Part shown: positions 2,363-19,648 of the stretch, one piece after another
Layout: each line of letters starts with the position of its first letter
Position numbering within the stretch: position 1 is the first letter of the stretch
Origin: Pseudomonas asiatica
GTDB taxonomy: Bacteria; Pseudomonadota; Gammaproteobacteria; Pseudomonadales; Pseudomonadaceae
DNA: 64,000 nt
Direction of reading: 5' to 3'
Assembly (NCBI RefSeq): GCF_040214835.1
Contig: NZ_CP157874.1
Span: 2,608,001-2,672,000, forward strand
The notes under the pieces: generated by a model
Told to the model about the DNA's origin: nothing
Databases searched by the model: none
Seen by the model: only the letters and a program-made list of their open reading frames with translations
Position numbers and translations under genes: made by a program

Positions 2363-4129
2363 TCAGAACTGTTCGGCGTCCAGCACGTAAAGGCAGGCAC
2401 TTCCCACGCGAGCGACACTGATCAGGGACTCGATGCGAGGTAACAGGCGGTCGAAGTAGAAGTGGGCGGTGGCCAGTTTAGCTTGATGGAAACTGTCTTC
2501 CTTTCCGGTAGCGGCCCGTGCCATGCGTGCCCACATATAGGCGTAGGCGGTGTAACCGAAAATATGCAGGTAGTCGACGGCCGCGGCACCTGCCTCGTAA
2601 GGGTTGGTCCTGGCAATTTTGATCAGATAATGGGACAGCGCCTCCAGTTGCCCTAGTGCTTCCAGCAGGCGGTGGCTGAAGGCTTCATGGGGCACTTGCG
2701 CCACGAAGGCGCGTATTTCTCCGGCAAAAATATTAAATAGCGTGCCTTCATTGGTCAGAACTTTACGTCCCAGCAAGTCCAGGGCCTGGATACCATTGGT
2801 CCCCTCATAAATCTGCGAAATGCGTACATCGCGAACAAGCTGTTCCTGACCCCACTCGCGGATGTACCCATGCCCACCGAAGACTTGCTGGCCGTGTACG
2901 CAGCTTTCCAAACCGGTGTCGGTAAAAAACGCTTTTGCGATTGGGGTTAGCAGCGCGACCAGTCCTTCCGAGCGGGCACGCTCCGTCGCCACCTCGGAAT
3001 ATTTGGCAATGTCCAGGTGTTGACCAAGATAGGTGGCGAATGCGCGCCCCCCTTCAGTCAGCGCCTTCATGGTAAGCAGCATGCGACGCACATCTGGGTG
3101 GACGATGATCGGATCGGCCACTTTGTCATGTTGTTGAGGCCCGCCCGGTGCGCGACTTTGCAGCCGGTCACGGGCATAGCTCACTGCATTCTGATAGGAG
3201 TTCTCGGCGCAGCCTATGCCTTGAACGCCTATGGACAGCCGTTCGTAGTTCATCATGGTGAACATTGCCGCAAGGCCTTTGTTGGGTTCGCCCACCAGCC
3301 AGCCGACCGCACCGTCGAAGTTCATTACACAGGTGGCCGAGGCCTTGATGCCCATTTTGTGTTCGATGGAGCCGCAATGGACCTGGTTGCGCTCACCCAG
3401 TGATTGGTCCGCATTGACCAGCACCTTGGGCACCAGAAATAGCGAGATACCGCGGGAGCCGGCCGGGGCGTCAGGCAGTTTGGCCAACACCAGGTGGATG
3501 ATGTTTTCGGTAAGGTCTTGTTCCCCACCGGTAATGAAGATCTTGGTGCCGGTGATGGCGTAGCTGCCGTCTGCGTTCGGTTCGGCCCGGGTTCGAATCA
3601 GCCCGAGGTCGCTGCCGGCGTGAGCTTCGGTGAGGCACATCGACCCGGCCCAGCGTCCTTCGTACATGGCCGGTAGATAGGTAGCCTTCAGTGCTTCGCT
3701 GGCATGCGCGTCGATGGCCAGGCAGGCACCTGCAGATAGCGTGGAGTAAAGGGCGAAGCTGGCATTCGCGCCGTACATCATTTCCTCGAACTGCACAGAG
3801 AGCATTTTCGGCATGCCCATGCCGCCATACTGCGGATTGCCCGCCAACCCGACCCAACCACCCTCGCCATAGATGCCGTAGGCATCGCGAAAGCCGTTGG
3901 GGGTAGTGACTTCGCCGTTGTTCCACTGCGCACCTTGCTCATCGCCACTGCGGTTTAGTGGGGCAACCAGTTCACGGCTGATCTTTGCCGCTTCTTCAAG
4001 AACCGCGTCGGCGATATCGGCGTCGATGCGTTCGGCCAAGGCCGGTAGCCGTTGCCACAGTGCGGGCGCGTCAAATACCTCGTTGAGCAGAAAGCGCATG
4101 TCGCGCAGTGGGGCATTGTATTCGGGCAT
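2363..4129 (-). CDS. Acyl-CoA dehydrogenase, long (about 588 aa) form with extra C-terminal domain
   Basis: FAD-dependent alpha,beta-dehydrogenation of an acyl-CoA. The sequence shows the flavin-binding 'CLTEAHAGSDLGLIRTRAE' stretch, 'ITGTKIFITGGEQDL', and near the end 'QIYEGTNGIQALDLLGRKV', which holds the catalytic glutamate region of this long subfamily (the DmdC/AidB-like class with an added C-terminal helical domain). ATG at 4129 is preferred because AGAGG precedes it by about 8 nt; an upstream in-frame start would add 15 unlikely residues. It is the last gene of the left arm, 60 bp after the symporter gene, and could supply the beta-oxidation step for acyl-CoA made by the ligase at 6260-7861. 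Confidence 0.9.
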   Translation of the reverse strand: MPEYNAPLRDMRFLLNEVFDAPALWQRLPALAERIDADIADAVLEEAAKISRELVAPLNRSGDEQGAQWNNGEVTTPNGFRDAYGIYGEGGWVGLAGNPQYGGMGMPKMLSVQFEEMMYGANASFALYSTLSAGACLAIDAHASEALKATYLPAMYEGRWAGSMCLTEAHAGSDLGLIRTRAEPNADGSYAITGTKIFITGGEQDLTENIIHLVLAKLPDAPAGSRGISLFLVPKVLVNADQSLGERNQVHCGSIEHKMGIKASATCVMNFDGAVGWLVGEPNKGLAAMFTMMNYERLSIGVQGIGCAENSYQNAVSYARDRLQSRAPGGPQQHDKVADPIIVHPDVRRMLLTMKALTEGGRAFATYLGQHLDIAKYSEVATERARSEGLVALLTPIAKAFFTDTGLESCVHGQQVFGGHGYIREWGQEQLVRDVRISQIYEGTNGIQALDLLGRKVLTNEGTLFNIFAGEIRAFVAQVPHEAFSHRLLEALGQLEALSHYLIKIARTNPYEAGAAAVDYLHIFGYTAYAYMWARMARAATGKEDSFHQAKLATAHFYFDRLLPRIESLISVARVGSACLYVLDAEQF

Positions 4130-4189
4130 TGATTGGACCTCTTGTTGCGGTGGCGGGTAGGGCCTTTGCGGCAACGCTTACCCGATGAG

Positions 4190-5848
4190 TCAATGTTCGC
4201 TGGCGCCAGCGATGCCCACGCCAGTCTGGGCGCGGACCATTTGATCGTCGAAGCCCTCATGATCGAGCGCTGCTCTGGCGCTGCGGTCGAGCTTGGAAAC
4301 CAGCACGATGACCAGGAACGTCAAAGGCATGGCGAACAGTGCAGGATGGTCGTAAGGGAAGATGGCGTGTTCGTGCCCTAGAACAGTGACCCACACTGTC
4401 GGCGACAAAATCACCAGGCCCAGCGCGCTGAGCAGGCCTGTCACGCCGCCATAGATGGCGCCTCGCGTGGTCAGCCCGTGCCAATACATCGCCATGAGCA
4501 GCACAGGGAAATTGGCCGAGGCGGCAATGCCGAACGTCAGGCCGACCAGAAATGCGATGTTCACTTGCTCGAACAGGATGCCGAGTGCGATCGCGAGCAC
4601 GCCCAGAGCGACCACCGCCGCACGTGAAACCAGCATCTCCCGCGCTTCATCGGCGACGCCGCGCTTGATGACCATGGCATAGAGGTCGTGGGAAATGGCG
4701 GATGCTCCGGCCAATGTCAGCCCTGCGACCACCGCCAGAATGGTGGCGAAGGCAACAGCGGACAGGAAGCCGAAAAACAGATTGCCGCCAACAGCCTTGG
4801 CAAGGTGCATGGCCACCATGTTGTTCCCGCCCAGGATCGCTCCGCCAATCTTGCCGTCGACGTAGTAGGCAGGGTCTGTACCGACGATTACGATGGCGGC
4901 GAAGCCCAACACACAGACCACCACAAAGAAGTAACCGATGAAACCGGATGCGTAGAACACCGATTTTCGTGCTTCACGGGCATCGGGCACGGTGAAGAAA
5001 CGCATCAGGATATGTGGCAGACCTGCAAGGCCAAACACCAAGCCCAATGCCATTGAGGCGACATTCAAGGGGTTTGCCAACATGCCGCCGGGCGCCATGA
5101 TGGCCCAACCGCCGGAGTGGCTTTCTATTGCGCGGCGCGCCAGTTGCTCCAGGCTGAAGTCGAAGGGCGCCAAAGCCAGCAACATGAGCAGGGTCCCGCC
5201 CACCAACAGCAGGATCGCCTTGGTGATCTGCACCCATGTCGTTGCCAGCATGCCGCCGAAGATTACATACACCAGCATCAGCAGCCCGACTATGACCACC
5301 GCCACGGAGTAGTCCAGGCCAAACAGCAGTTTGATCAGCTGACCTGCGCCCACCATTTGCAATAGCAGGTAGCAACACACCACCGTCAATGAACCGCAGG
5401 CTGCAAGCACACGTATTCGACGTTGATCCAGACGGAATGAAACGATGTCTGCGAAGGTGAAACGGCCGAGGTTGCGCAGGCGCTCAGCCATCAGGAACGT
5501 GAGGATTGGCCAACCGACGAAGAAGCCGGTCATGTAGATGATGCCGTCGTAGCCTTTGCTGAACACCATGCTGGATAAGCCCAGCAGGGTCGATGCCGAC
5601 ATGTAGTCACCGGCAATTGCCAAGCCATTTTGCAGGCCGCTGATGCCTCCGCCTGCTGTGTAGAAGTCGCGGGTCGATTGGGTTCTTCTGGCCGCCCACC
5701 ACGTGATGACCAGCGTAATGGATACGAACAACAGGAACATGCCGATCGCATTCAGGTTCACTCCGGGTTCTGTAGCGACAACGGTGGACGCATACGCGGG
5801 TTGCCAAGGCAAGGCGATGACGGCAAGCAAGGCATGGATGGGCTTCAT
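4190..5848 (-). CDS. Cation/acetate-type sodium:solute symporter, ActP-like (LvaG-like)
   Basis: A 552-residue sodium:solute symporter with about 13 membrane segments, close in length to acetate permease ActP (about 550). After a short leader ('[20 protein letters not shown]') it shows '[27 protein letters not shown]' in pieces typical of ActP, with '[20 protein letters not shown]' in the middle. It should import a short carboxylate with Na+. The start at 5848 overlaps the DUF485 stop by one base (TGATG), the standard YjcH-ActP arrangement. In the lva pathway of P. putida the equivalent gene is lvaG. Upstream in-frame codons to 6079 lie inside DUF485 and are rejected. Confidence 0.9.
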
Positions 5849-6174
5849 CACTGGCACTCCTCGACGATCTTCGCACTGAGTTTGTCGAAGTGCGTGTTGG
5901 CACGGTGCACGTACCAACCGGTCAGCAACCAGGCCATCACTATCAGCAAGATCGCAATGGGGATACCTGACGACAGGTGGCTGCTTTGATGCAGGGGTAT
6001 CTGCAGTAGCTGCGGCCGGCAGGCGGCAACTGCCATGAACGAGAAATAGGAACAGAGCACCAGCGCACTCAGCCCCCATGTAAGCCTTGAGCGGGCATTG
6101 ATCAACGCGATGAACCCAGGGTTTTCCCGGATTCGTTGGTAGTGCTCGGCCTGTGAGACAGTGACCTTGTTCAT
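5848..6174 (-). CDS. DUF485 membrane protein, YjcH-like (LvaF-like)
   Basis: A 108-residue protein with the DUF485 signature: '[21 protein letters not shown]' at the N-terminus, two hydrophobic segments (about residues 32-52 and 66-86) and a charged tail. DUF485 proteins nearly always precede ActP-type symporters and are thought to assist them at the inner membrane. ATG at 6174 is preceded by GGAGG 4 nt away. The gene is coupled to the symporter by a one-base stop/start overlap and follows the CoA ligase gene by 85 bp. Confidence 0.88.
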
Positions 6175-6259
6175 GGCGCCTCCGTTTTTTTGTTGTAGGG
6201 CTACCTGTTGGCTCACCAGCAGGCGAGCCAATTAGCGCGGTGCGTAACAGGGTGTCGGG

Positions 6260-7861
6260 TCAAGGCCAGACGTAATGGTCGAATTGCTCGCGCAAGGTCT
6301 TTTTACTCACCTTGCCAGTGGCGGTATGGGGCAGTTCGTTCAGGTACTCGCTTGCATCGGGCAGCCACCATTTGGGGATTCGCCCTTCCAGGAATGCGAT
6401 GAGCTCATCGTGTCGAGGGACTTTTTCGGGATGCTTCGGCACAACGATCAGCAAAGGACGTTCGCTCCAACGCGCATGCGGTACACCAATGACGGCCGCC
6501 TCCGCGATCAACGGATGAGCCGTTATCGCGTTCTCGATCTCGACAGAGGAGATCCACTCGCCGCCAGACTTGATGACGTCCTTGATGCGGTCGGTGATCA
6601 GCAGGTACCCGCGGCGGTCAATGGTTGCCACATCGCCGGTATCGAACCACACGTGCGAAGCAGGCTGGCCGAAGTAGCCACTGCATACCCAAGGGCCACG
6701 TACCTGCAACGAACCGGAGGACTGGCCGTCGTGGCTCAGCGCATTGCCGGCCTCATCGACGATGCGCATCTCGACGCCGAACAATGCCCGGCCTGACTTG
6801 AGCACTTGCTGGCTACGGGGCTCTTCTGGCAACACGTCGTACCACGGCTGATGGCGGTTGTAGCTGCCCATCGGGCTCAGCTCGGTCATGCCCCAACCAT
6901 TTTCCAAGGCCACACCGTGACGCCCCATCGCATGAATCAGCGAAAGTGGACACGCCGCGCCACCGCTGACGGCACGTTTCAAAGTAGGAATACGCTCGCC
7001 CTGGGCATCGAGATACGTCGAGATGTTGGTCCACAAAGTAGGTACAGCCAGGGAGAAACTCACGTGCTCCTGATTGATCAGCCTGACCATGGCTGCAGCA
7101 TCGCCGACTCTTGGCCCCGGCAGCACCAGTTTCGCTCCCACCATTGCGGCATTGTATGGCATGCCCCAGGCATTGACATGGAACATGGGGACCATCGGCA
7201 TTACAACATCGAGGGCACGCAAACCAACATTGTCCGCCATGTTTTGCGCCATGCCGTGCAAGACGGTACTGCGGTGACTTGCCAGCACGCCTTTGGGGTT
7301 TCCCGTAGTCCCGGAGGTATAGCAAAGCCCGCTGGCGCGGTTCTCGTCCAGTTCTGGCCAGTTGTAGTTTTCATCGGCATCTGCAATCAGCTTTTCGTAA
7401 CTGAGCAGGTTGGGAAGGGTGCTGTCCGGTATCTCATCCCCATTGCACAGGGCAACGTACCAACGCACGCAATCCAGCTCGGGTTGAATGCTTTCCAGCA
7501 AAGGAATGAACTGCGGATCGACGAACAACACATCATCTTCAGCGTGGCGAATGATGTAGCTGATCTGTTCTGGGAACAATTTGGGGTTGATGGTATGGCA
7601 GATTCGCCCCGAGCATGGAATCGCGTAGTGCAGTTCGAAGTGCCGATGATCGTTCCAGGCCAGGGTGCCCACCCTCGCATCGCCAGGGCAACCCAGTGCG
7701 TCCAACCCATCGGCTAATCGTCGTGCTCTGGCAAAGGCGTTGGCGTACGTGTATCGATGTACTCGGCCATCGGCTAAGAGAGAGACAATCTCGGTATCGG
7801 CAGCAACCATGAGTGCCTGCCGCATGACCGCGGCAATACTCAGGTTGAAGTTCATCATCAT
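6260..7861 (-). CDS. Acyl-CoA synthetase / AMP-dependent ligase (LvaE-like)
   Basis: About 533 residues, ANL superfamily. The AMP-binding P-loop '[13 protein letters not shown]', the A5-type '[17 protein letters not shown]', the hinge '[17 protein letters not shown]' and the C-terminal '[13 protein letters not shown]' with the catalytic lysine are all present, so the enzyme should be active. It activates a carboxylic acid as its CoA thioester. Three ATG codons in a row (7861, 7858, 7855) make the exact start uncertain; GGAGG lies 14 nt before the first and AAGG 7 nt before the third. It is the first gene of the left arm, behind a sigma-54 promoter at 7945-7960. By analogy with lvaE it would make levulinyl- or 4-hydroxyacyl-CoA. 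Confidence 0.9.
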
Positions 7862-7944
7862 GCCTTGCACAGGCACCTCCAGCCTTGTTCTTCTTGAGGT
7901 TCGAGGCTGGGCGCGCGAGGGCGCCGAGCTTGGAATGAGCAAGG

Positions 7945-7960
7945 AGCAAGGGGTGTGCCA
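7945..7960 (-). promoter_or_regulatory. Sigma-54 (-24/-12) promoter of the left arm
   Basis: Read on the minus strand, TGGCACACCCCTTGCT matches the consensus TGGCAC-N5-TTGCW with exact GG-N10-GC spacing. It lies about 85 bp upstream of the CoA ligase start and downstream (minus strand) of the stop of the sigma-54 activator gene, so it would drive ligase-DUF485-symporter-dehydrogenase separately from the regulator. Confidence 0.8.
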
Positions 7961-8046
7961 ATTTGCAGATCAATCGGGGTGCGTGAAAAAAACGATAAAA
8001 ATCATATGGTTGTACTTAGGGTCAGTTTTCCGGGGTTCAGCAGGTC

Positions 8047-8082
8047 CTGAAAAGCTGATTTCAGAATTGAATCGGATTTCAA
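8047..8082. promoter_or_regulatory. Two palindromic boxes upstream of the left-arm promoter (putative activator sites)
   Basis: CTGAAA-N6-TTTCAG (8047-8064) is a perfect 6-bp inverted repeat. TTGAA-N6-TTCAA follows at 8067-8082. They sit about 90-120 bp upstream of the -24/-12 promoter at 7945-7960, the usual enhancer distance for sigma-54 activators. A box of the same form occurs upstream of the right arm at 10088-10103. Assignment to the neighbouring PrpR-type regulator is inference. Confidence 0.6.
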
Positions 8083-8102
8083 GGTTGCAAAGGCGCAGAC
8101 GC

Positions 8103-10058
8103 CTAGCTTTTTTCATCCTTGAGGCGTCGCCACAGGGTCGTGCGGCTGATGCCAAGTCGCTTGGCGGCTTCATCCATGTCACCTGCGCAATGAGCCAGCA
8201 CTTCCCGAACTCGCCTTACTTCTTCGGCGCGACTGTGGCTGCGCAGGTCCTGGCTTGTCATGCCTTGCAATGTTGCATGCGGGGCCGGCTCGAAGAGTTC
8301 GTCGAACAAGGCCTGTAACAGCCGAGGGTTGTCCTGGCCTTGCAGTGCACTTGCTGAAAGCGCGGCACGCTCGACGATGTTTTCCAGCTCTCGGATGTTT
8401 CCTGGCCAACTGTGCCGCTCCAGTTGAGGCATGAGCCTCTCGAGCAGGCTGCTGGACGATTCATTGGCCGAGCTGTGTCCCGTCAGTTTGTCCAGAATCG
8501 ACCTGGCAAGCATTGGAATGTCGCGGGAGCGTTCGCGCAGGGGTGGCATGGTCAAGCGCAGGATGTTGAGGCGATAGTAGAGGTCTTCGCGGAAACAACC
8601 TTCGGTGATGCGTTGGCGAAGGTCCCGGTGCGTGGCAGCGATTACCCGGATGTCTACCGGTGTCGGCTCTGCCGCCCCCAGGCGTAACACCTCACGTTCT
8701 TGAAGCACGCGTAGTAGGCGCGTTTGCAAAGTGACCGGCATATCACCGATTTCATCGAGGAACAGGGTCCCGGTGTGGGCGTTTTCTATCAAGCCAGCCT
8801 TGCCACCCTTGCGCGAACCCGTGAAGGCACCTTCCTCGTAGCCGAACAGCTCACTTTCGAGCAATGTTTCAGGGAAGGCTGCGCAGTTGATTGCAACGAA
8901 AGGGCCTGCCTGGCGTTGGCTGGCGTTATGTATGCTTTGTGCCAGGAGCTCCTTGCCCGTCCCGCTCTCTCCATGAATCAACACCGTGGCGTCGGCCCCC
9001 GCGTAGTGGCGGGCAAGCCCCAGCATGGCCTGGAACCCGGCTGTGTCTCCAAGCATTTGTTCAAAGTGATAGCGAGCCGTGAACTGCTTGGGCTTCACCT
9101 GACTGCGGATACGCCGGTCCGCGCGTTGGATTGCATTGGCTTCCTGACAGGTGATGACGACCCCGTCGGGCTTGTCGTTTTCGATGATGGGCGTGATGTT
9201 CGCCGCCAGTGTCCGGCCCGCTGCTTTCAGAATCCGGTTTTCCTCGCTTTCACCACTGCAAAGTACCGTCGTTATATCCAGGCCTGGGATGACCTCGGCG
9301 AGCGGGCGTTCGCGTGCCCACTCGCTGGAAATACCGAGAAGTGCGGCCATGCGTGGGTTCAGGGACTGAACGAGCCCTTCAGCGTCCACCGCGATTACGC
9401 CATCGGACAAGTTGCGCAGTATCGAATTGAGGCGCTGTTGTTGAACCAGGCTCTGCTGGCGACTGCGGCAGATGGCCAATGCATCTTCCATGGCGCGCCG
9501 CACGGTGTCGGTGTTCAGCGCCAGTACGCCTTGTGCGCCGACCGACTCGGCAAGTTCAACGGCTGTAGATGACCCTACCACCACTCGGTAACCGTCATCG
9601 ACCAGGCGGTGTACCTGCTGGCGGGCCTCTTCATAGCTGGTGTAGGTAGCCTGGCGGATATCGACGGTAAAAAGCGACGACATCGCCTCAAGCTCTGGAT
9701 GAGCGTGCTGGAAACTGAGAATACCGACCTGGGTGGCTCGGGCACGGGCGAGGTCCAAGGCACGGATCAGGTCGTACTCGCCCATGCGAATCGACAGGAT
9801 GGCCGTCGCGATGTGCTGCCTCAGGTACTCGGAGGTTGCGCCCGAGCAGATGATGACGTCCACATCCCCTCTGGCCTCCAGCTCAAGGCCTGTGTTGCGC
9901 AGTTCGCCGACCGTGGTTTCGACAATTTCGACGCGCGCACGGCCGGTATAGTCGGGAATCACCTGTTCGACTATTCGCGCCATGCGGCTGAGCCCCTCAG
10001 GCAGACGAAGGTGGGTAATCAGGGCAACCACTTTGGGAAGGTACTCTCGACCACGCAT
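8103..10058 (-). CDS. Sigma-54-dependent activator with PrpR-type N-terminal domain (LvaR-like)
   Basis: 651 residues. Residues 1-200 resemble the PrpR N-terminal sensor domain ('VDVIICSGATSEYLRQH', 'VGILSFQHAHPELE'). Residues 205-310 are a PAS-like domain ('ILRNLSDGVIAVDAEG'). The AAA+ domain follows with Walker A GESGTGKE (363-370), the sigma-54 contact loop GAFTGS (410-415) and Walker B LFLDEIGD (432-439). The C-terminus is a Fis-type helix-turn-helix ('AAKRLGISRTTLWRRLKDE'). The contact loop reads GAFTGS where GAFTGA is usual. The gene lies between two catabolic arms, each with a -24/-12 promoter, so it probably activates both on sensing an acid or its CoA ester. It corresponds in position and type to LvaR of P. 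putida. Confidence 0.92.
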   Translation of the reverse strand: MRGREYLPKVVALITHLRLPEGLSRMARIVEQVIPDYTGRARVEIVETTVGELRNTGLELEARGDVDVIICSGATSEYLRQHIATAILSIRMGEYDLIRALDLARARATQVGILSFQHAHPELEAMSSLFTVDIRQATYTSYEEARQQVHRLVDDGYRVVVGSSTAVELAESVGAQGVLALNTDTVRRAMEDALAICRSRQQSLVQQQRLNSILRNLSDGVIAVDAEGLVQSLNPRMAALLGISSEWARERPLAEVIPGLDITTVLCSGESEENRILKAAGRTLAANITPIIENDKPDGVVITCQEANAIQRADRRIRSQVKPKQFTARYHFEQMLGDTAGFQAMLGLARHYAGADATVLIHGESGTGKELLAQSIHNASQRQAGPFVAINCAAFPETLLESELFGYEEGAFTGSRKGGKAGLIENAHTGTLFLDEIGDMPVTLQTRLLRVLQEREVLRLGAAEPTPVDIRVIAATHRDLRQRITEGCFREDLYYRLNILRLTMPPLRERSRDIPMLARSILDKLTGHSSANESSSSLLERLMPQLERHSWPGNIRELENIVERAALSASALQGQDNPRLLQALFDELFEPAPHATLQGMTSQDLRSHSRAEEVRRVREVLAHCAGDMDEAAKRLGISRTTLWRRLKDEKS

Positions 10059-10087
10059 GATTGATCACTCGACAATTTTTTCCATGT

Positions 10088-10103
10088 TGAAACAGAAATT
10101 TCA
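10088..10103. promoter_or_regulatory. Palindrome TGAAA-N6-TTTCA upstream of the right arm (putative activator site)
   Basis: A perfect 5-bp inverted repeat with a 6-bp spacer, of the same form as the box at 8048-8063. It is 98 bp upstream of the -24 element at 10202 and 30 bp upstream of the activator's own start codon, so it could serve both activation of the right arm and autoregulation. Confidence 0.6.
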
Positions 10104-10157
10104 TGTCTGCAACGAGGGCCATTCTTCAACGATTGCTGATTGAATCAATAATCTCAA

Positions 10158-10170
10158 TAACTAATTGATT
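10158..10170 (-). promoter_or_regulatory. IHF-type binding site
   Basis: On the minus strand the sequence AATCAATTAGTTA matches the IHF consensus WATCAANNNNTTR at every defined position. It lies in an AT-rich stretch between the putative activator box (10088-10103) and the -24/-12 promoter (10201-10216), where DNA bending by IHF normally brings a sigma-54 activator to the polymerase. Confidence 0.65.
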
Positions 10171-10200
10171 TAAAATAAGAATTTAAAAAATATCGTCATC

Positions 10201-10216
10201 TGGCCCAGCTCTTGCT
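10201..10216 (+). promoter_or_regulatory. Sigma-54 (-24/-12) promoter of the right arm
   Basis: TGGCCCAGCTCTTGCT: GG and GC separated by exactly 10 bases, with TTGCT at -12. It lies 39 bp upstream of the kinase ATG at 10255, so the leader would be about 27 nt. Confidence 0.82.
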
Positions 10217-10254
10217 CAGTCGCTTTGAGTCATTAGAGCGAGTTCGATATTGCG

Positions 10255-11313
10255 ATGAACAGTATTTCCAACCCAGGCCCCGCAGATGCTCGGGTCAGCA
10301 TCCCAGATGCGTACCCGGCACTTGCACGATATTTGCAGCAACAACTCGGCGCCGATCTGGTGAACATAGATCAGGGCCAGCGCCTTTCAGGTGGCGCCAT
10401 TCAGGAAAATTGGCTACTGAATGGCACAGTCCAGTTTGGGACAAAGACATTCGTCGACAGCTGGGTGCTGCGAACCGATGCCGCTTCGTCCGTGGCCGTC
10501 AGCATGAGCCGCGCAGAAGAGTTTGCGGTGTTGGCCGCCGTTCACACTGCTGGAGTCCGCGTACCAGAGCCGCTTTGGTTATGCGAAGACGCCTCGGTCA
10601 TAGGCCGCCCGTTCTTCATCATGCGTAAGTTGAACGGCATTACCAACGGCCATCGGCTGACATCAGATCCAGGCCTTGATCCGAAGCGCGACGAACTGTG
10701 CAGATCGCTTGGTCTGAATCTCGCCCAACTGCATCAGATCCGTCCGCACCACCCAATGCTGGCGTTTCTGGTACCACCGGCCGCTGACCCCATACAGGCC
10801 AGCATCGACCAGTACCGGCGGTTTCTGGATGCATTGCCCGACAACCATCCGGTCATCGAATGGGGGCTTCGATGGTGTGAACTCAACAAGCCCGCACCGT
10901 TGCCTGCCGGGCTGATCCATCGTGATTACCGCACTGGCAACTTCATGGTCGAGCAAGGCCAGCTCAGTGGCATCCTGGACTGGGAATTCACTGGTTGGGG
11001 AGACCCCCGTGAGGATATTGGCTGGTTCACCGCCCGTTGTTGGCGCTTTGCCCGGCGAGACCGTGAGGCGGGCGGTATAGGGGACATCGACGCCTTCTTG
11101 GCCGGCTACGCGTCTGTATCCGGTTACTGGGTGAGTCATGAAGAGCTGCGGTACTGGCAACTGATGGCTCATCTACGTTGGGCGGTCGTGGCGCTGCAGC
11201 AAGTGCAGCGGCATATCTCCGGCCAGCAGCCCTCTCTTGAATTGGCGCTGACTGGCCATCTGCTGCCCGAACTCGAACATGAAATCCTGGCCCTCAGTGG
11301 AGAGACCGTATGA
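10255..11313 (+). CDS. Phosphotransferase (APH/ACAD10-11 kinase type; LvaA-like)
   Basis: 352 residues of the aminoglycoside-phosphotransferase/choline-kinase fold. The Brenner motif 'LIHRDYRTGNFM' (catalytic Asp) and the metal-binding 'GILDWEFTGWGDPREDIGW' (Asp of the DFG-like site) are intact, as is 'LSGGAIQENW' near residue 45. Kinases of this type next to acyl-CoA dehydrogenases phosphorylate 4-hydroxyacyl-CoA at the 4-OH; in P. putida LvaA, helped by LvaB, does this to 4-hydroxyvaleryl-CoA. It is the first gene behind the right-arm sigma-54 promoter and overlaps the DUF6285 gene by four bases (ATGA). Drug resistance is unlikely given this context. Confidence 0.9.
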   Translation: MNSISNPGPADARVSIPDAYPALARYLQQQLGADLVNIDQGQRLSGGAIQENWLLNGTVQFGTKTFVDSWVLRTDAASSVAVSMSRAEEFAVLAAVHTAGVRVPEPLWLCEDASVIGRPFFIMRKLNGITNGHRLTSDPGLDPKRDELCRSLGLNLAQLHQIRPHHPMLAFLVPPAADPIQASIDQYRRFLDALPDNHPVIEWGLRWCELNKPAPLPAGLIHRDYRTGNFMVEQGQLSGILDWEFTGWGDPREDIGWFTARCWRFARRDREAGGIGDIDAFLAGYASVSGYWVSHEELRYWQLMAHLRWAVVALQQVQRHISGQQPSLELALTGHLLPELEHEILALSGETV

Positions 11314-11693
11314 ACGCTAGCAACGTCAGCGCGATTGACCTGTTGAACACGGCCAGACATGTCCTGATCGACGACCTTTTGCCCTTGCTGGGTGAGGCGA
11401 ACCACTACGAATGCAGAATGATTGCCCGGGCCATGTCAATCGCTGCCCGAGAGATCGAGTTGCGCGCAGAAGTCAGTGCACTTGAATCGAATGTTTTGGG
11501 CGAAGTCATGGGGCGCCATGGGCTGTTGAAGCTGACGCCGGCCCATGCGCGCCATTTGCTGGCCGGTTTCATCAGAAAAGGCGTTTTCGATAATGCCGAC
11601 TCTGCTCAGTCCAGCATGCTTGAAGCCCTGAGACAAATTACCCATGCACGACTGGCCATCAGTAATCCGAAGGTTGCGTGCCATGGCAAATAG
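11310..11693 (+). CDS. DUF6285-type small protein (LvaB-like)
   Basis: 127 residues, mostly helical, no signal or membrane segment. It contains 'NHYECRMIARAMSIAAREIE' and 'HARHLLAGFIRKGVFD', a pattern of the DUF6285 family that accompanies APH-type kinases in acyl-CoA pathways. In the lva system the corresponding small protein LvaB is needed by kinase LvaA. The ATGA overlap with the kinase gene implies coupled translation and a 1:1 complex. The DUF number is from memory of the family; the pairing with the kinase is the stronger evidence. Confidence 0.75.
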   Translation: MNASNVSAIDLLNTARHVLIDDLLPLLGEANHYECRMIARAMSIAAREIELRAEVSALESNVLGEVMGRHGLLKLTPAHARHLLAGFIRKGVFDNADSAQSSMLEALRQITHARLAISNPKVACHGK

Positions 11694-12396
11694 CATCGGG
11701 ATCAAACGACGACGCTGTTATCTGGTTCGTCATGGCCATGTCGATTATTTCGACGCACAAGGCCGTCCTTTGGACCCGCGCTCGGTGAGTCTCTCCGACC
11801 AAGGTGCTTTGCAGGCGAGAGCGCTTGGCGTGGTGATGCACGCAACTGCGTTGGATCGCGTACTGGTTTCCGATTATCCGCGGGCGCAGCAAACACTCGA
11901 CCTCGTGCTGATGGGGCGAGCGCTGAAGGTTGAATCCACGCCTGCGTTACGCGAAATCAGAGCCGGCCGTTTGCGTGAGATACCTGAGCCATCCATGCAA
12001 GAGGCCATCGTGGGCGCCTATCGCAATGCCGCCGAGCCTGATGCCACGTTCCTGGGCGGCGAACGCTGGAGCGATTTCAGCCAACGCGTGCTGGACAAGT
12101 TTCACGCAGTGCTGAACGAGGATGGCTGGGAGTCGCTGCTGATCGTTGCCCATGACGCCGTCAACCGCATCGTCCTGGCATGGGCCGCTGGTACAGGCCT
12201 GCCAGGGATTGCGGCCTTCGAACAGGACACCGCGTGTCTCAATGTCATCGACATCGACGGGGAGGGCGATGGCTCATTCGCCGCGATCATCCGCGCGCTC
12301 AATGTCACGCCCTACGACCCAGGCAAGGCAGGTATTCGCGACACCGTCCTAGAGAACCTTTACCGCCACATTCGCCCGGGCAAGCCATTGGCCTGA
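11683..12396 (+). CDS. Histidine phosphatase (phosphoglycerate mutase-like)
   Basis: 237 residues. The phosphate-binding 'YLVRHGHVDY' carries the RHG motif with the nucleophilic histidine; 'VSDYPRAQQT' supplies the second arginine region, 'LREIRAGRLREI' the acid region, and 'LLIVAHDAVNR' the second catalytic histidine. The ATG at 11683 has GAAGG 9 nt before it and overlaps the DUF6285 gene by 11 bases; the in-frame start at 11644 is less likely. The known lvaABCD order has no phosphatase between B and C. Here it could remove phosphate from a 4-phospho-acyl-CoA or rescue stalled intermediates (inference). Confidence 0.88.
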   Translation: MANSIGIKRRRCYLVRHGHVDYFDAQGRPLDPRSVSLSDQGALQARALGVVMHATALDRVLVSDYPRAQQTLDLVLMGRALKVESTPALREIRAGRLREIPEPSMQEAIVGAYRNAAEPDATFLGGERWSDFSQRVLDKFHAVLNEDGWESLLIVAHDAVNRIVLAWAAGTGLPGIAAFEQDTACLNVIDIDGEGDGSFAAIIRALNVTPYDPGKAGIRDTVLENLYRHIRPGKPLA

Positions 12397-12421
12397 CTCA
12401 GGACTATCCGAGGAAACAACA

Positions 12422-13597
12422 ATGAACTTCGCATTTCCCGATGATCTGGTTGCGCTGCAGTCGCGTGTCCGAGAATTCATCCTCAACGACATCATTCCCA
12501 TGGAAGCTGACCCTCGACAAAGCCCCCATGGCCCGTCGGAAGAACTTCGCCACGCGCTCGTCGAAAAGGCGCGTGCCAAGGGCCTGCTGACCCTGCACGC
12601 TTCCCGCGAGATGGGCGGGCAGGGCCTGAGTCACGTTGAAAAGGCTGTAATCTTCGAGGAGGCCGCCTACTCACCCTTGGGCCCCACGGCGATGAATATT
12701 CATGCGCCCGACGAAGGTAACATCCACCTGATGGAAGTTGTCGCCACCGAAGCGCAGAAAGACCGCTGGTTGAGGCCCCTCGTACAAGGTCACATTCGCT
12801 CCTGCTTCGCCATGACCGAGCCTGCGCCTGGGGCAGGTTCTGACCCTTCCATGCTTGCCACCACGGCCGTCCGAGACGGTGATGATTACATCATCAATGG
12901 CCAGAAGTGGCTCATTACCGGCGCTGAGGGGGCAGGCTTCGCCATCATCATGGCCCGGACCGAAGACGGTAACGCCACGATGTTCCTCACCGATACGAAC
13001 CAGCCAGGTTTCATTCTCGAGCGAATGATGGACTCCCTGGACAGCTGTTTCACCGGTGGCCATGCGGTGCTGCGTTTTGAAAATCTTCGCGTGCCCGCTA
13101 CCCACGTTCTAGGTGAAGTCGGCAAGGGCTTCCGGTATGCCCAGGTGCGACTGGCGCCGGCACGCCTGACCCACTGCATGCGTTGGCTGGGCCAAGCACG
13201 TCGTGCTCACGATGTGGCCTGCGCCTACGCCAAGCGGCGCGAGTCCTTTGGCAAGCGGCTGGGCGATCACCAGGGGGTGGGCTTTATGCTCGCCGACAAC
13301 GAAATGGACCTGCTCACCACACGCTTGACCATCTGGAACTGCGCCTGGGTGCTGGACCAGGGCTCACGTGGCAATTTCGAGTCGAGCATTGCCAAAGTGG
13401 TGAGCTCGGAGGGCATTTGGCGAGTGATTGACCGCAGCGTGCAGGTTTTGGGCGGGCAAGGGGTTACCAGCGAGGCGATCGTCGATCGGATTTTCCTAGA
13501 CGCCCGCGGTTTCCGCATCTATGACGGCCCTAACGAAGTCCATCGGATGAGCCTTGCACGAAAAATCCTGGACCGTGTCGTCGGAGGTGAACAGTGA
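12422..13597 (+). CDS. Acyl-CoA dehydrogenase-fold enzyme, ACAD10/11 type (LvaC-like)
   Basis: 391 residues with complete ACAD architecture: 'CFAMTEPAPGAGSDPSML' and 'INGQKWLITGAEGAGFAII' in the flavin region, 'RRESFGKRLGDHQ' and 'SVQVLGGQGVTSE' for FAD and CoA contacts. The last motif reads 'YDGPNEVHRMSLA', as in ACAD10/11 relatives, where ordinary acyl-CoA dehydrogenases have YEG(T). In the lva pathway LvaC turns 4-phosphovaleryl-CoA into an enoyl/3-hydroxyacyl-CoA. The gene follows the phosphatase by 25 bp and overlaps the SDR gene by GTGA. Confidence 0.9.
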   Translation: MNFAFPDDLVALQSRVREFILNDIIPMEADPRQSPHGPSEELRHALVEKARAKGLLTLHASREMGGQGLSHVEKAVIFEEAAYSPLGPTAMNIHAPDEGNIHLMEVVATEAQKDRWLRPLVQGHIRSCFAMTEPAPGAGSDPSMLATTAVRDGDDYIINGQKWLITGAEGAGFAIIMARTEDGNATMFLTDTNQPGFILERMMDSLDSCFTGGHAVLRFENLRVPATHVLGEVGKGFRYAQVRLAPARLTHCMRWLGQARRAHDVACAYAKRRESFGKRLGDHQGVGFMLADNEMDLLTTRLTIWNCAWVLDQGSRGNFESSIAKVVSSEGIWRVIDRSVQVLGGQGVTSEAIVDRIFLDARGFRIYDGPNEVHRMSLARKILDRVVGGEQ

Positions 13598-14373
13598 GCG
13601 CTCTCGTCTCCAAGCTCTTTGATCTGACCGGTAAACGTGTGCTGGTGACCGGGGCGTCGAGTGGACTGGGTTTGCACTTTGCCAAGACCTTGGCTTCGGC
13701 AGGTGCTCGTGTTGCGGTTGCGGCTCGGCGTGTCGATCGCCTTCATGACCTGGTAAGCGGCTTGTGTTTCGAGGGGCACGACGCAAGAGCCTACGCACTG
13801 GATGTGACTTCGCGCCAATCGGTGATCGAGTGCATCGACGCCATCGAAGCGGATTTTGGTGGGCTGGATATCGTGGTCAACAATGCCGGCGTAAGCGATA
13901 CCAAAAGGGTGCTCGATTATGACGATCAGGATTGGCAAGCGATTGTGGATACCAACCTCAAAGGCGCGTGGATCGTGGCGCAGGAGTCGGCCAAACGGAT
14001 GGTCAAGGCCGGGCAGGGGGGGAGTGTGATCAATATCACCTCGATCCTCGCAAGCCGCACCGGAGGAGGTGTAGGGCCTTATTGTGCGGCCAAGGCAGGG
14101 CTTAGCCATTTAACCCGATCACTCGCGTTGGAGCTGGCACGTCACGGAATACGGGTGAACGCGCTTGCGCCTGGGTACATCGCTACGGAAATCAACGACG
14201 CGTTTCTTTCCAGTGAAGCCGGTGAACGCTTGCGTGCGCGTATACCCAGTCGTCGTTTTTGCACGAGCAGCGACCTTGATGGTGCCCTGTTGCTCCTGGC
14301 CTCTGAAGCTGGGCGAGGCATGACGGGCGCAGAGATCATTGTCGATGGCGGTCACGCCTGTGCGGGTCTTTAA
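13594..14373 (+). CDS. Short-chain dehydrogenase/reductase (LvaD-like)
   Basis: 259 residues, classical SDR. The cofactor loop 'VTGASSGLG' (about residues 16-24), 'NNAG' (about 95), the catalytic serine in 'INITSILASRTGG' and the 'YCAAK' tetrad Tyr/Lys are all present. A strong GGAGGTGA site precedes the GTG start, which overlaps the stop of the LvaC-like gene. LvaD reduces levulinyl-CoA to 4-hydroxyvaleryl-CoA in P. putida; the same interconversion of 4-oxo- and 4-hydroxyacyl-CoA is likely here. Confidence 0.88.
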   Translation: MSALVSKLFDLTGKRVLVTGASSGLGLHFAKTLASAGARVAVAARRVDRLHDLVSGLCFEGHDARAYALDVTSRQSVIECIDAIEADFGGLDIVVNNAGVSDTKRVLDYDDQDWQAIVDTNLKGAWIVAQESAKRMVKAGQGGSVINITSILASRTGGGVGPYCAAKAGLSHLTRSLALELARHGIRVNALAPGYIATEINDAFLSSEAGERLRARIPSRRFCTSSDLDGALLLLASEAGRGMTGAEIIVDGGHACAGL

Positions 14374-14387
14374 AAGAGGTTGCTACG

Positions 14388-14699
14388 ATGATTACGGCAG
14401 TAGTGCGCATTCGCCTTCCTGAAGGGCTTGAGCTGGCGGCAGCCAAGGACATTTTCAAAAGCACAGCAGTGCAATACCAAGCTGTGCCCGGGCTTGTCAG
14501 AAAATACTATTTATTGTCTGAAGATGGCCGCTCTGTAGGCGGCGTCTATTTGTGGGAGTCGCGAGAACAGGCGCTGGCGCAATACACAGATGAGTGGAAA
14601 GCTTTTGTAGAGGGCAAATACGGAACACCGCCGAGCGTTGAGTTGTTCGAAACCCCGGTGGTCGTAGACAATCTATTGAACAGGGTGGTGGTTTCGTAG
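14388..14699 (+). CDS. Small monooxygenase-like (YdhR/ABM-type) protein
   Basis: 103 residues with the ferredoxin-like alpha/beta-barrel pattern of YdhR-type proteins: 'VVRIRLPEGLELAAAKDIFK', 'YQAVPGLVRKYYLLSEDGRSVGG' in sequence, then 'YLWESREQALAQYT'. It starts 14 bp after the LvaD-like gene and ends the right arm. Its role is unknown; it might handle a reactive side product. A similar-fold ABM protein is encoded at 1975-2268. Confidence 0.7.
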   Translation: MITAVVRIRLPEGLELAAAKDIFKSTAVQYQAVPGLVRKYYLLSEDGRSVGGVYLWESREQALAQYTDEWKAFVEGKYGTPPSVELFETPVVVDNLLNRVVVS

Positions 14700-14751: not shown

Positions 14752-15777
14752 TCAGTTTTCCGTTGACACGCTCAAGACAACCTTGCCGATGTGTTGTCCA
14801 GACTCCATCAGGGCATGGGCCTTGTCAGCGTCCGAAAGTGGAAATTCTTTATAAAGCAGCGGCTTTATGGTGTTGTTCTTGAGGTGTGGCCAGACGTGCT
14901 GCTCAAGCTCGGCCAGAATGCTGGCCTTGTCGTCATGGGTTCTTGAGCGCAAGGTCGAACCGATATGAGTCAGGCGTTTGACAAGCATTGGGAAAAGATC
15001 GACGTTGGTTGCGGCGCCTTTGATAACACCAATTTGCACGATTCGACCGTTCATGGCAGCGACCTGGAAATTTCGCGAGACATAGTCGCCGGCAATAATA
15101 TCGACAATGACGTCAACGCCCTTGCCGTTAGTGCCCTGCATGACTTCATCGACGAAGTCCTGTTCGTTGTAATTTATCGCCACATCGGCCCCCAGGTTCT
15201 GGCTTGCAACCTGCTGCTCTTTATTGGCGACGGTCGTGAACACTTTAGAGGCGCCAAAAGCCTTGGCCAGCATGGTCGCGGTAGTGCCGATGCCGGAGGC
15301 ACCTCCGTGGATAAGTACCGAATCGCCTGCTTTGAACTGACCGCGTTGAAAGAGATTGACCCATACCGTCATGAAGGTTTCAGGAACAGCCGCAGCTTCC
15401 TGCATGGAAAGCCCAGCTGGCAAATGTACAACCGTCCGCTCATCCGACACGGCGTACTCGGCATATCCACCGCCTGGAACCAGCGCCATGACCTTGTCGC
15501 CGGCAGAGAAGCGCGTGACTTCATTGCCTACCACCGCGACCACGCCTGAGATCTCCAGGCCAGGAATGTCGGAGGCTCCGGCGGGCGGGTCGTAGAGCCC
15601 TTTGCGCTGAAGAAGGTCTGGTCCGTTTACGCCCGCTGCATGAACTTCGATCAGGACATCACGAAGACCCAGCGTCGGGACCGCTCGCAGGGTCGCTTTC
15701 AAAACCTCCGGGCCACCAGGCCGGGTAATTTCAATAGCCGTCATCTCAGCGGACGGCTTGCTGTTGGTTATGCTCAT
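14752..15777 (-). CDS. NAD(P)H:quinone oxidoreductase, PIG3-like medium-chain reductase
   Basis: 341 residues of the zinc-independent quinone oxidoreductase branch of the MDR superfamily. 'AGVNGPDLLQRKGLYDPPAG' and 'DIPGLEISGVV' lack the catalytic zinc cysteines; 'VLIHGGASGIGTTATMLAKA' is the NADPH-binding motif. It probably reduces quinones or enones by one or two electrons. AGGAATATTCC precedes the ATG at 15777. It is transcribed divergently from a LysR gene at 15911, its probable regulator, and ends at the terminator 14718-14744. Confidence 0.88.
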   Translation of the reverse strand: MSITNSKPSAEMTAIEITRPGGPEVLKATLRAVPTLGLRDVLIEVHAAGVNGPDLLQRKGLYDPPAGASDIPGLEISGVVAVVGNEVTRFSAGDKVMALVPGGGYAEYAVSDERTVVHLPAGLSMQEAAAVPETFMTVWVNLFQRGQFKAGDSVLIHGGASGIGTTATMLAKAFGASKVFTTVANKEQQVASQNLGADVAINYNEQDFVDEVMQGTNGKGVDVIVDIIAGDYVSRNFQVAAMNGRIVQIGVIKGAATNVDLFPMLVKRLTHIGSTLRSRTHDDKASILAELEQHVWPHLKNNTIKPLLYKEFPLSDADKAHALMESGQHIGKVVLSVSTEN

Positions 15778-15910
15778 GGAATATTCCTGAAAAAGAGTGA
15801 AAGCCAGCCAACGCGGCTAGCGTGAACTCAAGGGTACGGAAGAGTTGAACCTGGGGCGCGCGGCGTTTTTGCGACGCTCTGTTGCAGTTGTTCTTCAAGG
15901 AAAAAAGCTT

Positions 15911-16774
15911 ATGAACTGGGATGATGCACGGGTCTTGCTGGCGCTCGGGCGAGCGTTGACGTTGCGCCGCGCGGGGCGCGTGCTTCGGATTGACCAAGCG
16001 ACGGTGGGAAGGCGGATTGCCGCGATGGAGGAAGACTTGGGATCTACCCTGTTTCTGCGCACGCCTACGGGTTATCAATTGACCGCCATCGGAGAAGTGG
16101 CATTCGAAATGGCGGAAAAAATGGAGAGCGCCGCCATGGAGTTGGCCCGCCGAACACGCGGAGCCGACCAGGAGCAAGCGGGGGAAGTGCGTTTATCTAC
16201 AACGGACTCGCTGGCCTATGACTTTGTAATACCAGCATTGAAGCAGTTGCACATTACGCACCCCGAAATACGTGTTGTCTTGAACAGCACATCGGAAATT
16301 GTGAATTTGTCAAAGCGAGAGACTGATATCGCACTGCGAAATCAGCGTCCGGAGAACCCTGATTTAATACTGCGAAAGCTGGCCGAGTGGCCGATGGGGT
16401 TGTTCGCATCTGCGCAATACATAGAGAAACATGGCGAGCCGGAGCCTGGCACAGGGTTTGAGGGGCACGACCTAGTCATGTATGAGCCTTACTGGAGAGA
16501 CCGGGGCCACCCCAGGCTGGTCGATGAAAGCATTGAGCAAGGCCGGGTAGTGGTGGCCGCCAACACCAGCATGATGGTGCGGCGTTCGATAAAAGAAGGC
16601 CTGGGAATCGGAGAAATTCCGATTGAAATGGGAATCCGTGACGGGCTTCAAAGAGTGTGGCCCGATCGGGTAAGAGCCAAGCCTTATGACGTCTGGATGG
16701 TCACCCACAAGGACCTCAGACACACTGCGCGTATCCGCTTTGTCATTGAGCATCTGGCGCAGGCCTTCGCGTGA
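15911..16774 (+). CDS. LysR-family transcriptional regulator
   Basis: 287 residues. The N-terminal winged helix starts 'MNWDDARVLLALGRA' and reads 'VLRIDQATVGRRIAAMEEDL'; the effector domain follows from about residue 90 ('GEVRLSTTDSLAYDFVIPAL'). The ATG at 15911 is chosen because LysR proteins begin with this 'MNWDD' helix; an upstream start would add 22 atypical residues. The gene is divergent from the quinone oxidoreductase across 133 bp and probably controls it. Confidence 0.9.
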   Translation: MNWDDARVLLALGRALTLRRAGRVLRIDQATVGRRIAAMEEDLGSTLFLRTPTGYQLTAIGEVAFEMAEKMESAAMELARRTRGADQEQAGEVRLSTTDSLAYDFVIPALKQLHITHPEIRVVLNSTSEIVNLSKRETDIALRNQRPENPDLILRKLAEWPMGLFASAQYIEKHGEPEPGTGFEGHDLVMYEPYWRDRGHPRLVDESIEQGRVVVAANTSMMVRRSIKEGLGIGEIPIEMGIRDGLQRVWPDRVRAKPYDVWMVTHKDLRHTARIRFVIEHLAQAFA

Positions 16775-18592: not shown

Positions 18593-19648
18593 CTATGCGG
18601 CTTGCTTCACGTGCTGTTGTTCCCGATCAGGGTTCAGCAGCACCGTACCAATTGGCTCCCAGTTGCGAGTGCGTCCTGACCATCGCTCCGGATTTCTATT
18701 TCGAGCGCGCTCATAGAGTTCGTGGCGCAGGGTAAGGATTTGCCTGTCCTGACCTCGATGACGCTCTGCTGGCGTGACGAAGCGGATTCGGCTGTGCCGG
18801 TGTTCGTGGTTGTACCAACGGATAAAATCACGCACCCAGCATCGTGCAGCATCCAGGGTTTCGAAGCCCTTGGTCGGCCATTGCGGGCAGTACTTCAGTG
18901 TTCTGAAAAGCGCCTCCGAGTATGGGTTGTCATTACTGACACGCGGCCTGCCGCGGGATGGGGTTATGCCCAGTTCGTACATCTTACTCAGCAAAGTGGC
19001 CGATTTCATCGGCGTGCCGTTGTCCGAGTGCAACACCAACGGCTCTCTCAAGCGCTGTTCGCTGATCACACTTCTCTGCAGCAACACTGCTGCTTTGGCG
19101 CCGTCTTCGTTCTCGTGTACCTCCCAGCCCACAGTCTTGCGGCTGTAGATGTCTTCGATCAGGTACAGGTAGTAGTATTTTCCACGTACCGAAGACGGTA
19201 AGTATGTGATGTCCCACGACCACACCCGGTTAGGTGCGCAGGCAGCATGCGTTGTCGGCTCGGCATGACACCCAGGGCGTTGAGCGCGCCCTAGGCGTTC
19301 TCGCTGTCCAGCAGACCGAAGCACCCGGTAGAAGGTCGACTCCGAGCCTATATAGAGTTGCTTATCGGCCAGCCTCGGCACGATCTGGCTAGGTGGCAAG
19401 TGAGCATACTCAGCGCTGTTGCACAGGTTCAGAATCGCTTGTCGCTCGTGCTCGCTCAGCGCGTTCGGTGGGGCGGCGCGAACTGCAGTTGTGCGTGCGT
19501 CCGCCGCCACCTCTTCCGTTTGAGTCCAGCGCTGCAAAGTTCTGAGCGTCAAGCCAACTTCCTGACATGCCGTCAATTTCCGTGCTCCGGAATTAATCGC
19601 CTCAGTCAGCCAGGCCACCAGCAGTTGCCGTTCCGGCAGAGCAGTCAA
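18593..19648 (-). CDS. IS3-family transposase OrfB (DDE integrase catalytic domain)
   Basis: 351 residues from a TTG at 19648. The DDE triad is visible in 'VWSWDITYLPS' (first Asp), 'LHSDNGTPMKS' (second Asp) and 'SNDNPYSEALFRTLKY' (Glu). An N-terminal helical part precedes it. The TTG overlaps orfA's stop by four bases (TTGA), but the frame is open back to an A6G slippery site inside orfA, so the main product is likely an OrfAB fusion made by -1 frameshifting. The frame appears intact, so the element may still be active. Confidence 0.92.
   Translation of the reverse strand: MTALPERQLLVAWLTEAINSGARKLTACQEVGLTLRTLQRWTQTEEVAADARTTAVRAAPPNALSEHERQAILNLCNSAEYAHLPPSQIVPRLADKQLYIGSESTFYRVLRSAGQRERLGRAQRPGCHAEPTTHAACAPNRVWSWDITYLPSSVRGKYYYLYLIEDIYSRKTVGWEVHENEDGAKAAVLLQRSVISEQRLREPLVLHSDNGTPMKSATLLSKMYELGITPSRGRPRVSNDNPYSEALFRTLKYCPQWPTKGFETLDAARCWVRDFIRWYNHEHRHSRIRFVTPAERHRGQDRQILTLRHELYERARNRNPERWSGRTRNWEPIGTVLLNPDREQQHVKQAA

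Follow-up and report, generated by a model that had tools for sequence, protein, structure and literature searches.

Known systems for 4-oxo and 4-hydroxy acids

The gene cluster considered here occupies positions 2363 to 14699 of a 64-kb stretch of the Pseudomonas asiatica genome (5.85 Mb, one contig), and the whole of that stretch is called the window. With a probability of roughly 85%, the cluster is an LvaE2-type two-armed lva locus for levulinate-like 4-oxo/4-hydroxy acids. The closest described systems are the levulinate cluster of Pseudomonas citronellolis LA18T, the lvaABCDEFG operon of Pseudomonas putida KT2440, and the mammalian enzymes ACAD10 and ACAD11.

Pseudomonas citronellolis LA18T: The two-arm layout has already been published for this strain by Habe et al. 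2019 (PMC6692424). As in the window, the genes for the symporter, the DUF485 protein, the acyl-coenzyme A (CoA) ligase LvaE2, and the regulator lie on one strand, and those for the kinase, histidine phosphatase, dehydrogenase, and SDR oxidoreductase are divergent. Others have shown in this relative that the symporter gene is 48.4-fold induced on levulinate versus pyruvate, making it the most induced gene, and that LvaE2-containing extracts produce levulinyl-CoA (PMC6692424). The same report describes a 44-fold induction of hemB on levulinate, proposes that the phosphatase removes the phosphate from 4-phosphovaleryl-CoA, and gives lvaB as absent. The LvaE2 of LA18T and the window ligase both have 531 residues and start similarly (MNFNLGIAAI and MNFNLSIAA, respectively). 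Unlike the LA18T cluster as reported, the window cluster has a gene for DUF6285/LvaB, and a FadE2-like gene follows the symporter gene. Among the literature matches listed, no other publication on an LvaE2-type two-arm cluster was found.

Pseudomonas putida KT2440: According to the available portions of two reports (PMC6692424, PMC9399607), the lvaABCDEFG system shares with the window the kinase, DUF6285 protein, dehydrogenase, SDR, PrpR-type activator, DUF485 protein, and ActP-type symporter. In contrast to the window, it is a single operon, its ligase belongs to another branch, and those portions describe neither a phosphatase among the seven genes nor a FadE. The identities of LA18T to KT2440 are 59% for the kinase, 78% for the dehydrogenase, 67% for the SDR, 35% for the ligase, 31% for DUF485, 64% for the symporter, and 52% for the regulator (PMC6692424, Table 2), and the identities of the window proteins to lva-type loci are close to these figures.

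Mammalian ACAD10 and ACAD11: As far as the available parts of the sources go (PMC12440821, PMC11342911), these enzymes share with the window the kinase and dehydrogenase chemistry on 4-hydroxyacyl-CoA and the signature residues. They are fused into one chain, whereas the window has separate genes. Moreover, the HAD domain of ACAD10 restrains its own kinase, while in the window a histidine phosphatase gene lies beside the kinase gene.

The two-armed locus of P. asiatica

The genes of the window were identified from a list of open reading frames (ORFs) and matches to Pfam and NCBIfam profiles. The left arm, on the minus strand, carries the acyl-CoA dehydrogenase, symporter, DUF485, CoA ligase, and activator genes, and the right arm, on the plus strand, the kinase, DUF6285, phosphatase, dehydrogenase, and SDR genes.

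2363..4174, minus strand: FadE2-like acyl-CoA dehydrogenase (translation probably starts near 4129; closest solved structure 8png, E 4.9e-274)
4190..5848, minus strand: ActP/LvaG-type sodium:solute symporter (ORF opens at 6079, likely start 5848; PF00474; NF006903 over its cut-off)
5848..6231 (ORF), minus strand: DUF485 protein, LvaF-like (PF04341)
6260..7855, minus strand: LvaE2-type acyl-CoA ligase (ORF opens at 7942, likely start 7855)
8103..10058, minus strand: PrpR_N/PAS/sigma-54 activator, LvaR-type (PF06506, PF00158, PF02954)
10255..11313, plus strand: LvaA-type APH kinase (PF01636)
11310..11693, plus strand: LvaB-type DUF6285 protein (PF19802, 59.3 bits against a cut-off of 28.1)
11683..12396, plus strand: histidine phosphatase (ORF opens at 11644; PF00300/His_Phos_1, 117 bits)
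12422..13597, plus strand: LvaC/ACAD10-11-type dehydrogenase (conserved residues matched to ACAD11)
13594..14373, plus strand: LvaD-type SDR oxidoreductase (PF13561)
14388..14699, plus strand: ydhR-like small protein, a doubtful member (PF08803, 25.4 bits, below the cut-off of 27.1)

All genes named in the preliminary description, which had called the locus either a rearranged lva operon or a paralogous pathway for another gamma-hydroxy or gamma-keto acid, were recovered in place; it had overlooked the histidine phosphatase and passed over the ydhR-like gene, which is seen in one of the 11 other Pseudomonas-type two-arm loci defined below (L039). The genes in the E, F, and G positions do lie on the opposite strand as it had noted, and the seven genes do not run in one direction as in the canonical lvaABCDEFG. 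A second full lva operon, which it had suggested looking for, was not found in the genome, since there is one DUF6285 gene and the two further APH genes are remote (30% and 27% identity).

The catalytic residues are conserved throughout the compared loci. In the kinase, H222, D224, N229, and D242 are kept in 81 of 81 rows, so that the catalytic Asp and the Mg-binding residues of APH kinases are in place. In the dehydrogenase, R243, H251, R254, and D368 are kept in 61 of 61 rows, giving the Asp in place of Glu together with the Arg, His, and Arg of the phosphate site. These were matched to mouse R626, H634, R637, and D753 by their spacing in the printed human ACAD11 alignment, and the available part of the source assigns the Arg, His, Arg, and Asp of ACAD11 to phosphate recognition and catalysis (PMC12440821). 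The SDR keeps S150, Y163, and K167 in 60 of 60 rows and N96 in 59, with one gap. The kept LvaC/ACAD11 residues, and the levulinate induction of the same layout in P. citronellolis (PMC6692424), lend good support to the catabolism of 4-oxo/4-hydroxy acids that was first proposed for the locus.

A separate conserved lineage

Searched against named genomes, the window kinase has 333 relatives; the 80 most similar were kept, and their surroundings were painted with the window proteins. These comprise 15 two-arm, 18 lva-type, and 47 other loci; with the window added, there are 81 rows and 16 two-arm rows, and counts over these rows do not measure prevalence because the 80 are the best of 333 by kinase similarity. 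The two-arm rows are 12 of Pseudomonas type (one binned as Paucimonas, window included) and four from Marinobacter. One kinase row (L077) is identical to that of L111, yet the locus is classed as other, since no CoA ligase satisfied the rule.

The 11 other Pseudomonas-type two-arm loci are 70-78% identical to the window in the regulator, 64-74% in the kinase, 85-89% in the dehydrogenase, 80-85% in the SDR, and 75-80% in the ligase. The corresponding values for lva-type loci, which are those of other Pseudomonas and not the KT2440 proteins themselves, are 50-55%, 51-58%, 73-76%, 65-70%, and, for the ligase, 31-34% over all 18 loci. DUF485 is 31-33% identical (seven loci with a match) and the symporter 58-65% (the 10 loci in which painting placed it). 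The window's genome encodes two more ActP-like proteins, each 60% identical to the symporter and so as close to it as the lva-type symporters, and symporter similarity to LvaG was dropped as evidence on that account. The matches to LvaE, LvaF, and LvaG in the preliminary description thus stand at the level of family; orthology by identity does not.

A tree of the regulators separates the 16 two-arm rows from all others with a support of 100, and a quick tree of the kinases unites the 12 Pseudomonas-type rows in one set (support 98). The P. japonica DSM 22348 assembly contains one two-arm and one lva-type locus (L041 and L075), on different contigs. By these sequence comparisons, the two-arm layout is a separate conserved lineage and not a local rearrangement of lvaABCDEFG; the word 'rearranged' is misleading because the lineage has its own regulator clade and a ligase of another branch (LvaE2), and coexists with canonical lva in one assembly.

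The lineage was also followed in wider samples. Among 199 genomes drawn from the genus, 14 have a kinase of at least 47% identity, the same 14 have DUF6285, and the phosphatase lies beside the kinase in four (window included). Among 398 genomes of the family, a ligase of at least 75% identity occurs in eight besides that of the window; four of these loci (L034, L036, L037, L038) were already in the set of 80, and two more, L142 and L143, add to the two-arm loci. Of the remaining two, L144 has the two-arm layout with no SDR match, and L145 lies on the L045 contig of P. linyingensis.

LvaB in the LvaE2-type cluster

The kinase gene is followed by a DUF6285 gene in 16 of 16 two-arm rows, and the same holds for L142-L144. 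Among the latter, L143 resembles LA18T in having hemB beside the symporter gene and a ligase whose first ten residues equal those of LvaE2 of LA18T; its genome is 7.2 Mb, its ligase is 75% identical to that of the window, and a 127-residue protein matches DUF6285 with 64.6 bits. Because the gene occurs in all two-arm rows and in this LA18T-like locus, lvaB of LA18T was probably overlooked, and with lvaB present in the two-arm type, the phosphatase would accompany it and not replace it. Beyond the published layout, what is new is the apparent way in which both arms are switched on and the presence of the helper gene lvaB that had been reported as missing.

The hemB-like (ALAD) gene of L143 (11931-12923) adjoins the symporter gene, as in P. 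citronellolis. A metal-site motif search of the 64-kb window found no hemB, while the LA18T cluster has one. Levulinate inhibits ALAD, and the L143 gene is perhaps an extra haem-synthesis copy that offsets this inhibition.

Promoters and candidate activator sites

The scan for sigma-54 promoters used a 16-base element in which the GG and GC pairs had to be present and up to two mismatches were allowed. In 20 kb of the window, on both strands, there are three sites, two of which lie upstream of the two arms; the background is 42 sites in 463,058 positions over 11 loci, real ones included. Each arm also has one copy of a palindrome, TGAAA-N6-TTTCA.

7945..7960, minus strand: predicted sigma-54 -24/-12 element of the left arm, TGGCACACCCCTTGCT (1 mismatch to consensus)
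8048..8063, unstranded: left-arm copy of the palindrome, exact, candidate activator site
10088..10103, unstranded: right-arm copy of the palindrome, exact, candidate activator site
10201..10216, plus strand: predicted sigma-54 -24/-12 element of the right arm, TGGCCCAGCTCTTGCT (2 mismatches)

The left-arm element recurs with one or two mismatches in 12 of 12 Pseudomonas-type loci, and the right-arm element with at most two in 10 of 12 and with three in two. These two exact palindromes are the only ones in 64 kb, with 0.01 expected. The right-arm palindrome lies 112-124 bp upstream of the -24 element in all 12 Pseudomonas-type loci, being exact in 11 and having one mismatch in L037, and two of L142-L144, which were not used to find it, have the exact right-arm copy. 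No exact copy occurs in the fetched stretches of the 18 lva-type loci, and a search for a palindrome shared by these loci, with arms of 5 and 6 bases, gave none present in more than 3 of 18. Control of the right arm through the palindrome site is therefore a well-supported prediction. With a position-weight matrix built from the right-arm sites (themselves scoring 31-40), left-arm scores are moderate (9-19) in the window and all four Marinobacter loci and stay below 5 in the eleven remaining Pseudomonas-type loci.

Exact palindromes outside the arm regions occur in L033 (16577), L042 (15284), L069, and L073, and L058, of the 'other' class, has one between regulator and kinase. The L033 copy is probably due to chance because no sigma-54 element lies within 400 bp. 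An acetoacetate decarboxylase-family protein is encoded at 970-1887 of the window, and its N-terminus resembles a Tat signal. Such a gene stands beside four of the 12 Pseudomonas-type clusters (window, L087, L042, L039), at either end; the window protein is 98% identical to the L087 copy, although the cluster genes of L087 are 61-87% identical. In L042, the gene has upstream a sigma-54-like element (15177, minus strand, two mismatches) and, 107 bp further out, the exact palindrome at 15284, and in L039 it has a sigma-54-like element (15528, two mismatches) and a palindrome with two mismatches (15656). The genes of the window and L087 have no such pair upstream. For two of the four loci, these elements support a putative place of the gene in the regulon.

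The histidine phosphatase

The phosphatase gene lies beside the kinase gene in 34 of 81 rows, and in 15 of 16 two-arm rows (all except L065) versus 1 of 18 lva-type rows. R80, E104, and H170 are kept in all 34, and R29 and H30 in 32, the other two having a gap. Homologues away from the kinase occur in two of the six genus genomes with a match of at least 45%, and the role of the enzyme may therefore reach beyond the pathway of the cluster. In L113, a phosphatase (53%) lies near a FadE-like gene and a FadB-sized ORF, and the 18 kb fetched contain no kinase or ACAD10/11-type dehydrogenase.

Alternative readings and substrate length

Several points weigh against an LvaE2-type levulinate locus as the reading of the window. 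By identity, the CoA ligase, DUF485 protein, and symporter are not orthologues of LvaE, LvaF, and LvaG. The two-arm rows are not one clade in the kinase tree, where the four Marinobacter rows stand apart from the Pseudomonas-type set, with 'other' rows between, inside a 33-row set of support 95. The exact left-arm palindrome occurs only in the window and two of the four Marinobacter loci, so that control of the left arm through this site is suggestive, and L143, one of the three extra loci, has no exact right-arm copy. The FadE2-like gene is unneeded for levulinate itself, and the function assigned to the locus in the window strain is a prediction from its genes.

The strongest alternative, given somewhat less than an even chance, is that the pathway is a paralogous one, serving mainly 4-hydroxy or 4-oxo acids of greater length (C6-C12, such as those arising from gamma-lactones or oxidised lipids), and that levulinate is just one of the substrates it accepts. 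The FadE2-like gene, present in 8 of 12 Pseudomonas-type loci, hints at substrates beyond C5, and its absence from four speaks against them. Its best solved relative, 8png, is taken to be FadE2 of P. aeruginosa, a medium-chain enzyme, since the triple-mutant changes given for FadE2 in the available part of the source are seen in the paired chain 8r1e; according to that source, FadE2 acts on C4, C6, and C8 acyl-CoAs (PMC11890623). The pocket residues Glu296 and Gln303 are kept in all eight two-arm copies, and Met130 is replaced by Thr in five and by Ala in three. Such a step is superfluous for levulinate, as its C5 product splits into acetyl-CoA and propionyl-CoA, and longer substrates are plausible for this reason. 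The larger modelled tunnel of LvaE2 (PMC6692424) and the retention of both cluster types in the P. japonica assembly point the same way. On the other hand, the P. citronellolis relative responds to levulinate (PMC6692424), and an ActP-type symporter suggests short acids.

A sister kinase clade, with FadE-like genes nearby in seven loci, also speaks for longer substrates. The two pocket positions of its FadE-like copies are mostly Asn and Ser. In L046, thiolase, FadB-like, FadE-like, and MalT/LuxR-type genes are placed opposite, and on the P. linyingensis contig (L045/L145) an LvaE2-like ligase (75%) and an LvaR-like regulator (68%) head a sister-clade arm. As seen in L046 and L045/L145, the clade resembles a version of the pathway with a complete beta-oxidation of its own.

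A reading of the left arm as a 3-methylthiopropionate (DmdB/DmdC-like) module, unrelated to the lva arm and no more than its neighbour, is very improbable. The best NCBIfam model of the ligase is indeed 3-(methylthio)propionyl-CoA ligase, below its cut-off, and among the solved relatives are 6ihk for the ligase and 6ijc for the dehydrogenase, which are Dmd proteins. Nevertheless, the two arms are found side by side in 16 of 81 rows and are preceded by sigma-54 elements in the Pseudomonas-type loci, and among solved structures the dehydrogenase is closest to 8png and not to 6ijc. In addition, levulinate is a substrate of LvaE2 (PMC6692424). Less probable still is that an ordinary lva operon was rearranged locally in the window strain. 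The shared kinase, DUF6285, dehydrogenase, SDR, and regulator families would fit such an event, which was rejected in view of the recurrence of the layout, the regulator set, the ligase branch, the phosphatase distribution, and the P. japonica assembly described above.

Neighbouring genes

A quinone oxidoreductase-like gene and a divergent LysR gene (14752-16774) follow the right arm and lie beside 9 of the 12 Pseudomonas-type clusters; the oxidoreductase-like gene is possibly part of the pathway. Two adjoining transposase genes (18593-20208; rve and HTH_Tnp_1 domains) lie near a border in G+C content between the cluster region (58%) and the rest of the window (65%), which suggests that the cluster region is an acquired island. 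A ligase match was found in 2,878 plasmid records, in each of which even the best-matching place stays below 60% identity, giving no sign of a plasmid origin. To the left of the window (its base 1 is L121:18001), a defence island with Gabija (GajA, GajB) and Wadjet (JetA, B, C, D) spans L121:1003-15305. It is flanked by two near-identical YhaV-like toxin genes, of which the one at 14844-15305 has a Pfam match and the one at 1003-1464 was recognised from its first letters.

Proposed pathway and significance

In the proposed LvaE2-type pathway, a 4-oxo or 4-hydroxy acid such as levulinate would enter through the symporter/DUF485 pair and be converted by LvaE2 to its CoA thioester, and the SDR would reduce the 4-oxo to the 4-hydroxy form. 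The APH kinase with DUF6285 would then phosphorylate the 4-hydroxyl, and the ACAD10/11-type dehydrogenase would eliminate the phosphate to give a 2-enoyl-CoA for beta-oxidation. The FadE2-like enzyme may desaturate the C4-C8 acyl-CoA that remains after the first round. Most likely, the histidine phosphatase takes the phosphate off 4-phospho-intermediates that have stalled or been hydrolysed. One PrpR-type activator, acting at the TGAAA-N6-TTTCA sites, probably fires the sigma-54 promoters of both arms. A bolder and doubtful extension is that the two-arm lineage is dedicated to 4-hydroxy acids longer than C5 with its own FadE2-like enzyme, that the phosphatase is a safety valve for stalled 4-phosphoacyl intermediates, doing in bacteria the job that the HAD domain has in human ACAD10, and that a single activator switches on the two arms and, in certain relatives, the gene of an exported acetoacetate decarboxylase-family enzyme as well, via the shared palindrome and sigma-54 promoters.

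The cluster draws attention to a phosphatase that recurs in a kinase-lyase pathway, and the presence of lvaB in the LvaE2-type cluster touches a published point. Moreover, the palindrome offers a candidate activator site, open to testing, at levulinate-type promoters of a second kind. Levulinate and 4-hydroxy acids are carbon sources derived from biomass and lipids, and the enzymes that act on them have recently been linked to human ACAD10/11.

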